Assembly (NCBI RefSeq): GCF_012272825.1
Contig: NZ_JAAWWS010000146.1
Span: forward strand, 62,001 to 126,000
Source: Wenzhouxiangella sp. XN79A
Lineage (GTDB): Bacteria; Pseudomonadota; Gammaproteobacteria; Xanthomonadales; Wenzhouxiangellaceae
Direction: 5' to 3'
Length of the DNA stretch: 64,000 nt
The translations under genes were made by a program, and so were the position numbers. Of this stretch, positions 6,427 to 14,087 are shown in pieces. The stretch's first letter is position 1, and every line of letters begins with the position of its first letter. The notes under the pieces were generated by a model, which worked only from the letters and a program-made list of their open reading frames with translations, made no database searches and was not told the origin of the DNA.

Positions 6427-7653
6427 TCACTCCATTTCATCATCCGGCTCGTCGATCGGATTGTCGTTTCCAGGATCGAGATCACTGAACTTCGCGATCG
6501 CTTCGTCGTAGACCGCAAGCATGGCATCCAGCTGCGGAAGGAGCTGCTTGGCTGAAATCACTCGAGCAACGCGCTCCTTGTCCGGATCGATCCGAAGTTC
6601 CGGGACCAGTTTCTGGAGATCCCGAGCAAGCGCGACGACGTCTTCCTCGCCGACGCCGCTTCTGCGTAGCGCCTGTCGCAGCTTTGGCGGTGTCGTGAGC
6701 ACATTGCCGTTTCTGTACAGGCGGATCAGGATCAAGCCGGCTCGTGCGGTCGAAAAGGGAATCCGGATTGAGGCCGAATCGCCCTTGCTGGTGATTTCGA
6801 TCCAGCCACGCCGCCGACCCCACTTGAACAGACGCTCTCCGAATTGACGAACTTCGGGGTGCTGGATGCCCTCCAGGAACTCGCTCTCGGTCAGTTTGGG
6901 TGCTTTCTCGCCAGGATCGGCACTGACCGTGACCTCCACCTGCTCCGGCTGTGCGCCTCGAATCGTGACCACCGCCCGCTCGATTTCGGTCGAATGCGCA
7001 ACGACGTTCGGCACGACCAGGAGGTCACCGGTTTCGGTGGGCATTCTGTAGAGCTTGAGCTCGACCAGCCCGAAGGTGAAATGCAGCCGCGATTGATGAT
7101 GGAGGGAACCCAGAATGCTCTCCAGCCCCTCACGGATCCCATCGCCGACAACCAGCAGCAGGAAGCGGCCAGTGGCGAGGTTTTTCTGGAGGCGATCGAT
7201 GAATTCGGGTTCCCTTGGCGTCTCTTCGGGAAACGCGTCGCTGACAAGCGCGTAGAGATCGTTCGCCTCGCTGACGCGGGACTGGTTGGCCCCGGTGCAG
7301 CGCTGCTGGAACTCCTCGACACTCAGCGAAGACAGGCGATTGGCGTAGTCCAGGATCTGGGCCAGGACATGGCGCGTCGCCTGCGGATTGCGCCAGAGCT
7401 TGGTCTCGACCACGGTCAGTCGGCCGGTCGGGGAGATGAAGAGGTTGTCGATCCCCAGGATCTCCCGACCGACCGAAACGAGCGGCCCGAAGCTTTCGTC
7501 GAACCTCGAGACCGGCAACATCGCAGGGTTCCGCTCGAGAAGCTCTTGGAGAAAATTCTCCTGGATATCGCGACTTCGCAGGTCGATGGGCCGGAGCGCT
7601 GACGATGGCTGGTTCTCCCGAACCAGGTGGGGTTCGGCTTCGCTACGCATCAT
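6427..7653 (-). CDS. NucS/DUF91-like PD-(D/E)XK endonuclease, 408 aa
   Basis: Seen: residues about 35-120 carry a nuclease core of the NucS C-terminal type: NPAMLPVSRFDESFG, then GIDNLFISPTGRLTVVETKL (D of IDNLF and E-T-K as the metal-binding D...ExK), then a helix HVLAQILDYANRL. The rest, 130-408, is not recognised; it contains a beta-rich segment (WIEITSKGDSASIRI) and an acidic tail (DPGNDNPIDEPDDEME). No membrane segment. It is the last gene of a minus-strand cluster, 82 nt after a WYL regulator. Inferred: a DNA endonuclease in a defence-type locus. The long C-terminal extension is not that of NucS. Confidence 0.65.
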   Translation of the reverse strand: MMRSEAEPHLVRENQPSSALRPIDLRSRDIQENFLQELLERNPAMLPVSRFDESFGPLVSVGREILGIDNLFISPTGRLTVVETKLWRNPQATRHVLAQILDYANRLSSLSVEEFQQRCTGANQSRVSEANDLYALVSDAFPEETPREPEFIDRLQKNLATGRFLLLVVGDGIREGLESILGSLHHQSRLHFTFGLVELKLYRMPTETGDLLVVPNVVAHSTEIERAVVTIRGAQPEQVEVTVSADPGEKAPKLTESEFLEGIQHPEVRQFGERLFKWGRRRGWIEITSKGDSASIRIPFSTARAGLILIRLYRNGNVLTTPPKLRQALRRSGVGEEDVVALARDLQKLVPELRIDPDKERVARVISAKQLLPQLDAMLAVYDEAIAKFSDLDPGNDNPIDEPDDEME

Positions 7654-7735
7654 CGACCCTCGATCCGATTTCCGATTGATTGGTCAAGATTGTGCCTTGG
7701 CTCAGGTGCATGAATGATCCATCGGACCGATGGGC

Positions 7736-11787: not shown

Positions 11788-11963
11788 GCCTCGGCTCCCG
11801 GTGTCGAGGCCGCGTTCTTCCACGCGTCGCTGAATCGCCCTTGTGTGCTCATGTGCTCCCTCCTGCTCTTTGATTGTGCCCCAAGACTATTTCACGGGTG
11901 CGACAGATTCTGTCGCAGGCCGAACGCATGCTCCCTGCATCGATCACCGAAGAGGAACCAGTC

Positions 11964-14087
11964 ATGCTGAAACGCGACTATGGACACGGAGCGGAACAGG
12001 ACTTCGAAGCCGACGGCGAGATCGGGCGATACCGGCACCTGGCCCGGCTGTGGGCGGCGCGCATCCTGCTGCGCATGGGCCGGCCATCGAACCGAAGCCA
12101 CTTCGACGACGATCTCCTGTTCGAACTGGCGCTGGTTGACGAAGAAACGTCGCGGTTCAGCGCGGTAGAGGTGCTCGGCGATCGGGCCCTGATCCGCGAG
12201 CGCCTCGATGAGCTCGAGTCCGTTCCCTGGGATGCCGACGGCGTGCTCGATCGGAACCTTCGCTACCTGGCGCAGCGGTTCCGGCTGTCGGACGTGGATT
12301 GCGCGGTGGTGGCGTTCCTGACCCTGGCCGGACGGTTCGAATGGTTGGGCCGGCTCGTGCAGGACGCATCGAGACACACCCGGCTGGAGAGCCCCACGCG
12401 TTGCGTGGTCGCGGCGACGGGCCTGACCGATGAACGGGTCGAGGCCGCGCTCTCCTGGTCCGAGCGCCTGGTGCAGTGCGGCTTGATCGACGGGCGCAAG
12501 AGCAGCTACAACGACAGCCATGAGCTGCCGAGCCTGATCGATCGCGTACGTCTGGGGCTCTGGCGAGCGGACTTTTCCGAGGGGTACTTCGACGCCCACT
12601 ATCTGCGGTCCGCGAGGCTCGCCGAAGACGAGTTCGCCTTGGTCGACCGGTTGCCGGACGTCTTCAAGAGCGTGCTGGAACTGGTGCGGGCCATGCTGGA
12701 CGGCAAGGCCCCGATCGGCCAGATCCTGATCCACGGCAAGCCCGGCACCGGCAAGACCCGCTTCGCACTGGGATTGGCCGCGGAGCTGGGCGTCGACTGT
12801 CGCGAGGTCATCGACGTCCGGCGGAATGACGTGATGAGGTCGAGCGAACGGACCCGTGCATTCCTGCTCGCCCAGGAACTGCTGCGCGACATGCCCCGTA
12901 CCCTGCTGTTGTTCGACGAGTGCGATGAATCGCTGACCATCGAGAAATCCGCATTGTTCGGTCGCAGCGAGTCGACCAAGAGCTGGTTGAATTCCGTGGT
13001 CGAGAAGAACGCGGTGCCGGGCCTCTGGATCGCCAACGACATCGACGACGCGCATCCTTCGACCCTGAGACGCTTCGCGATGGTGGTCGAGATGCCGGAC
13101 CTGTCCGAGGCCGCGCGGGCGGACATTCTCCGCGAACAGGTCGGCCGGCTTTCGATCGACGAGGAATGGGTCGCGCACGTGGCCCGGACACGGTCCGTCA
13201 CACCGGCACTGATGCAGCGCGCCGCCCTCGTCGGCCATGCGCTGGCCGACACATCGGAGCACACGATCCGGAGTGCGATGACGGCCACCCTCGAGGGTCA
13301 TTGCCGTGCCGCCGGCACCGCGTTCGTCCGCCCGAAGCCCCGCCGCCGAACGGAGGCCCCGCTGCCCTACTCCAGCGACTGGCTGAATGCGGACCCCGGC
13401 CTCGGCCCGGTTCTGGACCAACTCGGACGATCCAGCGAACCCGCAGGTCGACTGCTGCTGCACGGCCCGCCCGGCACCGGCAAGACCCGACTCGGGCAGG
13501 AAGTGGCCGAACGGATTCAGCGCCCGCTTCGAGTGATCACCGCCTCCGACCTGCTCGACGCGCTGGTCGGCGAGACCGAAAAGGGAATCCGCAAGGCCTT
13601 CGAACGGGCGGAGGAAGAAGGAGAAGTGCTGCTGCTCGACGAGATCGACGGTCTGCTGATCGATCGCGCACGGGCACAGCGAAGCTGGGAGATCACGCAG
13701 GTCAATGAACTGCTGACCCGCATCGATGCCTTCGACGGGGTGCTATTGGCCGCGACCAATCGGCTGTCCTCGATGGACCCGGCTGTGTTGCGTCGCTTCG
13801 ACCTGAAGGTGAAGTTCGATTACCTGCGACGGGAGGACGCGCATACCCTGTTCCTCAAGTTGGTCGCGCCGGACGCCGAAATCGGCCCAGGCCAACTTGA
13901 CCGACTGGCGTCCCTGGATCGGCTTGCGCTGGGTGATTTCCGGACGGCACTGCGGCAGTTGGAACTCAGCGGAACGGCGATCAGCCCGGAGGCACTGCTC
14001 GATGCGCTGAGTCGCGAAGTGGCTGCCAAGCCGGAGGAGACGAGTCGACCGATCGGGTTCACCGCAGGTCTGGGGAGGGTGGCGTGA
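11964..14087 (+). CDS. Tandem AAA+ ATPase, 707 aa
   Basis: Seen: two complete AAA+ modules. The first has Walker A HGKPGTGKT at about residue 258 and Walker B TLLLFDECDES at about 317. The second has Walker A HGPPGTGKT at about 500, Walker B EVLLLDEID at about 558, sensor-1 LLAATNRL and arginine-containing VLRRFDLKVKF. The first 230 residues are helical and unrecognised. ATG at 11964 is chosen over the upstream TTG/ATG readings, because GAGGAA lies just before it and the preceding residues look non-coding. The organisation recalls Cdc48/FtsH-like unfoldases without a protease. It is transcribed away from the DUF2779 operon across a 176-bp gap and is probably functionally linked to it. Confidence 0.85.
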   Translation: MLKRDYGHGAEQDFEADGEIGRYRHLARLWAARILLRMGRPSNRSHFDDDLLFELALVDEETSRFSAVEVLGDRALIRERLDELESVPWDADGVLDRNLRYLAQRFRLSDVDCAVVAFLTLAGRFEWLGRLVQDASRHTRLESPTRCVVAATGLTDERVEAALSWSERLVQCGLIDGRKSSYNDSHELPSLIDRVRLGLWRADFSEGYFDAHYLRSARLAEDEFALVDRLPDVFKSVLELVRAMLDGKAPIGQILIHGKPGTGKTRFALGLAAELGVDCREVIDVRRNDVMRSSERTRAFLLAQELLRDMPRTLLLFDECDESLTIEKSALFGRSESTKSWLNSVVEKNAVPGLWIANDIDDAHPSTLRRFAMVVEMPDLSEAARADILREQVGRLSIDEEWVAHVARTRSVTPALMQRAALVGHALADTSEHTIRSAMTATLEGHCRAAGTAFVRPKPRRRTEAPLPYSSDWLNADPGLGPVLDQLGRSSEPAGRLLLHGPPGTGKTRLGQEVAERIQRPLRVITASDLLDALVGETEKGIRKAFERAEEEGEVLLLDEIDGLLIDRARAQRSWEITQVNELLTRIDAFDGVLLAATNRLSSMDPAVLRRFDLKVKFDYLRREDAHTLFLKLVAPDAEIGPGQLDRLASLDRLALGDFRTALRQLELSGTAISPEALLDALSREVAAKPEETSRPIGFTAGLGRVA

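Follow-up and report, generated by a model that had tools for sequence, protein, structure and literature searches.

A candidate anti-phage module with a WYL regulator, a tandem AAA ATPase, a DUF2779 nuclease and swappable cargo in Wenzhouxiangella sp. XN79A

The window analyzed here, 64,000 nucleotides of Wenzhouxiangella sp. XN79A, corresponds to bases 62001-126000 of a 149-kb contig of the 3.75-Mb host genome and harbors a cluster of six genes with predicted DNA-handling functions, which we call A to F. An initial annotation, made from the sequence alone, had delimited these open reading frames (ORFs), and all six lie where it placed them, on the strands it gave and with the signatures it named. 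Gene F (11964..14087, plus strand) encodes a tandem AAA+ ATPase of ~707 amino acids (aa) and is, as annotated, divergent from the other genes, which follow on the minus strand in the order E, D, C, B and A outward from F. E (10288..11823) encodes a DUF2779 protein with an N-terminal Cas4/DUF83-like nuclease and a C-terminal DEDDy exonuclease domain, D (9494..10291) a putative PD-(D/E)XK-type nuclease of a rare family with the N-terminal block FNRKER...MDYHL, C (8818..9519) a predicted DNA glycosylase of the UDG superfamily, B (7736..8749) a transcription factor with winged helix-turn-helix (wHTH), WYL and WCX domains, and A (6427..7653) a NucS/PDC-S11-like PD-(D/E)XK nuclease. The region between E and F carries a perfect 19-bp palindrome (11899..11917), a candidate operator of the WYL regulator. 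Three genes overlap as claimed initially, E with D by 4 bp (TTGA) and D with C by 26 bp; B and C are separated by 68 bp, A and B by 82 bp. The start of F may be TTG 11874, from which the ORF is open, ATG 11928 or ATG 11964, and E has an alternative in-frame ATG at 11787. This ATG is overlapped by the terminal ATGA of a 22-codon ORF (11784-11852, minus strand) with the ribosome site AGGAGGG, possibly a leader peptide coupled to E.

The DUF2779 protein E matches its Pfam family at 4.8e-37, together with a weak overlapping match to RNase_H_2, and the residues of both its predicted nuclease domains are invariant in 12 homologues, namely D114, E127-x-K129 and C223/C229/C235 in the Cas4-like part and D314-x-E316 and Y484-x3-D488 in the DEDDy part. 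The features by which we recognized the DUF2779 family, that is, DUF2779 itself and a Cas4-like domain with DEDDy and ExK motifs, are all found in E, and one homologue (L054) matches the Cas4 model at 1.4e-7. The ATPase F contains two Pfam AAA domains (2e-38), and the Walker A, Walker B and Arg pairs of both modules are invariant in 6 homologues. B matches Pfam WYL (4e-16), WCX (5e-16) and, weakly, an N-terminal HTH as well as the WYL regulators of PADLOC (model set dated 2023); it shows the wHTH-WYL-WCX architecture of the regulators of CapW/BrxR-type operons, and the initial naming of a WYL regulator and a DUF2779 protein was thereby confirmed.

The three remaining proteins are more divergent from described profiles. 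C gave a sub-threshold Pfam UDG match (0.023), and in a fold search with its low-confidence model (mean pLDDT 51) the first 27 matches were all UDG-superfamily chains (MUG/TDG, UdgX, UDG; best E 8.5e-4), so that the model points to the UDG fold previously considered possible. Pfam gave no match for A or D. The family alignment of A keeps the PD-(D/E)XK-type residues D69 and E83-x-K85, and its sole profile match is a weak one to the PADLOC candidate PDC-S11 (7.5e-7); neither Pfam nor NCBIfam returned NucS or DUF91, so that of the proposed NucS/DUF91-like nuclease the nuclease motif stood and the family name did not. For D, an alignment of 4 sequences keeps D126/D128 and E148-x-K150, and the order of elements in a low-confidence model (pLDDT 45) fits PD-(D/E)XK, with Cap4 as top fold match at E 0.05; naming the fold of D from this model was dropped because of its low confidence. 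None of the PADLOC models was matched by C, D or E.

Neighborhoods of E were sampled from a genome collection of 85,000 species (GTDB), in which at least 574 DUF2779 relatives were confirmed; the closest 80 were kept with 10-kb flanks, many of them on short contigs. The closest named homologue of E in this collection is that of Wenzhouxiangella sediminis (58%). The exact six-gene order was not found outside the host genome in the loci sampled. The trio of F, B and E was found on at least 11 other contigs, from W. sediminis, Diaphorobacter, Rhodoferax, Sphingobium and Azospirillum and from the metagenome-assembled genome (MAG) or genome contigs L065, L067, L113, L121, L123 and L138, and F and B without E occur in further ones. 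In Diaphorobacter, Rhodoferax and Sphingobium the E homologue is plasmid-borne and has an F homologue and a WYL protein as neighbors; Azospirillum has the trio too. Of the closest 80 loci, 8 have F, and 7 of these also contain B, vs 5 of the 72 without F (Fisher p=2e-6, this and the other co-occurrence p-values ignoring shared ancestry). Seen from F, a WYL gene lies nearby in 10/11 plasmid loci (one of them ~7 kb off) and in 2/10 sampled genome loci. Within the host family (43 genomes), E was found in 6 and F in 4, all genomes with F also having E (p=1e-4); the 5 other genomes of the host genus lack E. The order of the three genes varies between F-E-B, B-F-E and F|B-E, and is F|E-(D-C)-B here. 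A gene of ~220 aa stands directly before E in L027 and L123, with relatives in L117 and elsewhere on the host contig (~237 aa, G000:C29:58432-59145, or L025:18432-19145); it is possibly HEPN-like, which Pfam did not confirm.

The palindrome in the E/F intergenic region, TGCGACAGA-T-TCTGTCGCA, is a perfect 9+1+9 repeat and resembles the ~20-bp palindromes of CapW/BrxR-type operons, and its dyad is conserved in loci that contain B. With up to 3 mismatches allowed, it occurs at three places only in the host genome: at this locus and in two imperfect copies (51094-51171) 40-120 bp before the ATG of a second tandem-AAA gene (G000:C29:51211-53356). W. sediminis has GGCGACAGA-N-TCTGTCGCC between divergent F and B. 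In an enumeration of all dyads with 4-6-bp half-sites and 0-12-bp spacings before the F genes of B-containing loci, GCGAC-N7-GTCGC was the top 5-mer dyad, found in 10/21 loci with B nearby vs 0/10 without (p=0.012). Across 92 E-anchored loci, there were 13 dyads in 263 kb with B vs 1 in 1,123 kb without B (p=5e-9). In genomes of the family, copies of the dyad stand before B, E, F, a PDDEXK_4 gene that overlaps E, and two further PD-(D/E)XK genes, one of the latter two called by motif only. In one such genome (L201), dyads at 6036, 7738 and 11641 precede the B homologue, the E-overlapping PDDEXK_4 gene and another PD-(D/E)XK-like gene, forming what by its sites is a small putative regulon. In the gammaproteobacterial MAG L067, the same dyad-bearing leader is duplicated (4450 and 5723), before a D homologue and before a NERD-helicase gene, and we counted these operators as one event; the duplication suggests a capture of cargo. 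A sigma-70 scan of the E/F intergenic region gave no match. Another palindrome, CCATCGG-A-CCGATGG (7719-7733), lies directly after B, and the B-C gap carries the related CTCGG-A-CCGAG. The WYL repressor CapW of CBASS binds ~20-bp palindromes and represses bidirectionally (PMC9122588), and it is by this analogy a natural inference that B would bind the 19-bp palindrome. On these sequence grounds, we define F, B and E as the core of the locus, apparently tied together by a shared control site.

The genes A, C and D accompany this core to different extents. A Chloroflexi MAG (L085) has A, E and D in one unbroken row, the viral contig L147 has A next to E, and in L067 the D homologue stands ~1.1 kb upstream of an F-B-E operon. 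Because A and D are rare, with the D profile matching only 4/378 genomes of the phylum (one of them weakly), two matches beside E for each of them are unexpected (0.006 expected for D and 0.010 for A), and both are probable cargo. D had appeared to be an orphan gene when single-sequence searches of class genomes, plasmids, genome contigs and viral contigs came back empty, a view given up once E neighborhoods and alignment searches yielded relatives. On a Bosea plasmid (L156), a cas6/RAMP CRISPR gene cluster follows an A homologue at a distance of ~2.6 kb. The GC content at third codon positions (GC3) is 0.60-0.62 in C and D vs 0.74-0.84 in A, B, E and F, which suggests that the two genes were inserted between E and B at a later time. 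At 51% identity, a relative of C stands by itself as a cassette-like gene within an integron-type Vibrio array with catB9 and VOC genes, and more distant relatives stand alone on plasmids near restriction genes; C is probably a passenger. The idea that the six genes belong together thus holds for the host genome, for F, B and E, which recur in unrelated genomes, and for A and D as occasional partners of E. Relatives that never keep the genes together had been named as the outcome that would speak against it, and such absence is seen for C and for the complete order; one fixed six-gene system is not supported, given this absence and the codon composition of C and D.

The locus has a GC content of 53-66% vs ~70% further right, and is part of a defense island that takes up the first ~80 kb of the contig, to about window position 18,000, in agreement with the anti-phage setting suspected at first. 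The expected toxin-antitoxin-rich surroundings were found with PIN (5486-5857) and HipA (16515-17837) genes. Further island genes encode a C5-methyltransferase, a NERD-kinase matching PglW/PD-T4-6, MRE11/SbcC-like proteins (by sequence), UvrD-like helicases, a pAgo-like protein, an HKD-SNF2 helicase and GmrSD, in addition to the second tandem AAA gene. The pAgo-like protein (527 aa, G000:C29:34795-36378, or L024:14795-16378) gave weak matches to prokaryotic Argonaute/PIWI models (1.8e-11). A second WYL gene adjoins a second, longer DUF2779 gene within the island (G000:C29:4948-9259, L023); they are ~29% identical to B and E, an ankyrin-like ORF separates them, and the core dyad was not found nearby. 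Rfam and tRNA scans of the window gave no matches.

The module matches no PADLOC system and is unnamed in the open-access literature searched, in line with the initial statement that no named system has such a gene order. It resembles CapW-CBASS and BrxR-BREX in having a wHTH-WYL-WCX regulator and a ~20-bp palindrome in the divergent promoter of a defense locus (PMC9122588, PMC9122589). In contrast to these systems, the six genes yielded neither a cyclase nor BREX core proteins, the putatively controlled genes encode DUF2779 nucleases and a tandem AAA ATPase, and the dyad GCGAC-N7-GTCGC tracks the present module in the loci sampled. IetA is the PADLOC model closest to the second AAA module of F (5.7e-36), yet F has two AAA modules and reaches 116.8 bits vs a cut-off of 510 on the NCBIfam model IteA_antiphage, and it was rejected as the IetA of an IetAS system; no protease domain that could represent the partner IetS was found among the six genes or the neighboring TPR, PIN and HipA genes. 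C resembles Brig1 and Brig3, by superfamily rather than by sequence comparison, as a UDG-superfamily protein in a defense island, and differs from them in that its low-confidence model is nearest to MUG/TDG. These two Brig glycosylases excise modified cytosines from the DNA of T-even phages (PMC11078745, PMC13160076), which makes C, by analogy, a plausible glycosylase of this kind. E shares the architecture of Cas4-like (DUF83) and DEDD exonuclease domains with the DUF2779/COG2251-TM0106 nucleases (PMC3985635), where DUF2779 is classed as a predicted 3'-5' exonuclease carrying DUF83. The accessible passages of open-access papers mentioning DUF2779 include no study of a DUF2779 defense system, and in those of ARMADA (PMC12458937), a BREX survey (PMC12839542) and the NTP-dependent conflict systems (PMC7159879) the composition F-B-E was not found. 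Nor was a tandem-AAA/DUF83 context found in the corresponding parts of a CARF/WYL survey (PMC4012209), and a literature search for Azaca and WYL returned irrelevant text matches only.

We consider it fairly probable that the locus is an anti-phage defense candidate with a recurrent core of B, F and E plus swappable cargo. The cluster is probably such a swappable unit rather than one fixed six-gene system, because the core recurs in unrelated bacteria, mostly within anti-virus islands and in many cases with the same 19-base site, and carries extra nucleases and a predicted glycosylase here. Several observations weigh against this reading. As many as 72/80 E loci lack F within 10 kb (some on truncated contigs) and most E homologues stand alone, from which it follows that E works elsewhere too; several genomes carry F without B or E, and C is absent from all E loci sampled and was never seen with the core elsewhere. 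The dyad was discovered at this locus before testing, the counts include the loci of its discovery, and the association p-values take no account of shared ancestry. The exact dyad is missing from about half of the F+B loci, meaning either that the regulator diverges in specificity or that something else binds the dyad.

Part of this pattern would also arise if F-E-B were a regulatory or ATPase add-on of other systems, such as the PADLOC candidate PDC-M27, which is related to Azaca (ZacABC) by ZacB/ZacC matches, and had been left behind or re-used here. In Rhodoferax, F-E-B is directly followed by matches to PDC-M27A (2e-182) and PDC-M27B (1e-242) and by a DEAD/DEAH helicase, the W. sediminis triad adjoins PDC-M27B/C-like genes, and in Pantoea and Desulfosarcina F and B precede a ZacB-like protein and a helicase. 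However, PDC-M27 is not annotated near the triads of Diaphorobacter and Sphingobium, the six window genes match no PDC-M27 or Zac model, and the PDC-M27 trio is not adjacent in the window, the nearest HKD-SNF2 gene, a weak PDC-M27C match, being ~30 kb off on the contig. We regard such an add-on as unlikely; since the triad precedes PDC-M27 A-B in Rhodoferax and adjoins related genes in W. sediminis, it may both act alone and serve other systems.

It is quite improbable that independent defense genes were packed by chance into the island, each acting alone and the E/D/C overlap being incidental. The deviating GC3 of C and D, the lone Vibrio relative of C, the occurrence of D relatives on their own and the uniqueness of the full order would all fit this explanation, but the recurrence of F, B and E with a shared operator and the rare A-E-D and A-E arrangements of L085 and L147 argue against it. 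A DNA-repair or SOS-like stress-response cluster is a very remote prospect: RecB-like, DEDDy, NucS-like and UDG domain types are common to repair enzymes and SbcCD-like genes lie in the same island, but the patchy accessory spread of E, with its absence from the rest of the genus, and its carriage on plasmids are at odds with such a role. The palindrome is not a global SOS box, because its only three near-matched places in the genome are all beside tandem-AAA genes.

For the swappable anti-phage unit, we propose the following mode of action. In the uninfected cell, dimeric B would sit on the 19-bp palindrome and repress both divergent promoters in the manner of CapW in CBASS, until a phage-derived ligand, perhaps a nucleotide or a DNA fragment, releases it. 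F could then assemble as a two-ring AAA motor and license or load E, a presumed dual nuclease that joins a Cas4-like RecB fold to a DEDDy 3'-5' exonuclease, on phage DNA for degradation. The cargo nucleases D and A might widen the target range, and C might generate abasic sites in phage DNA with modified bases. More tentatively, and with somewhat more doubt than confidence, we suggest that the locus represents an undescribed, widespread and modular immune platform, in which a tandem AAA motor and a DUF2779 dual nuclease are governed by a WYL repressor with an operator of its own, and exchangeable PD-(D/E)XK nucleases (here also a UDG-fold glycosylase) join the regulon by acquisition of operators or by insertion between core genes.

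With this reading, DUF2779, so far only a predicted exonuclease, gains a predicted role in defense and is tied to a tandem AAA ATPase and a WYL regulator via a defined DNA site. The control site makes the regulon searchable by sequence, such that each gene bearing it is a candidate new effector. The locus also suggests a mode in which defense islands could grow, with one regulator and motor being kept while the nuclease cargo is exchanged.

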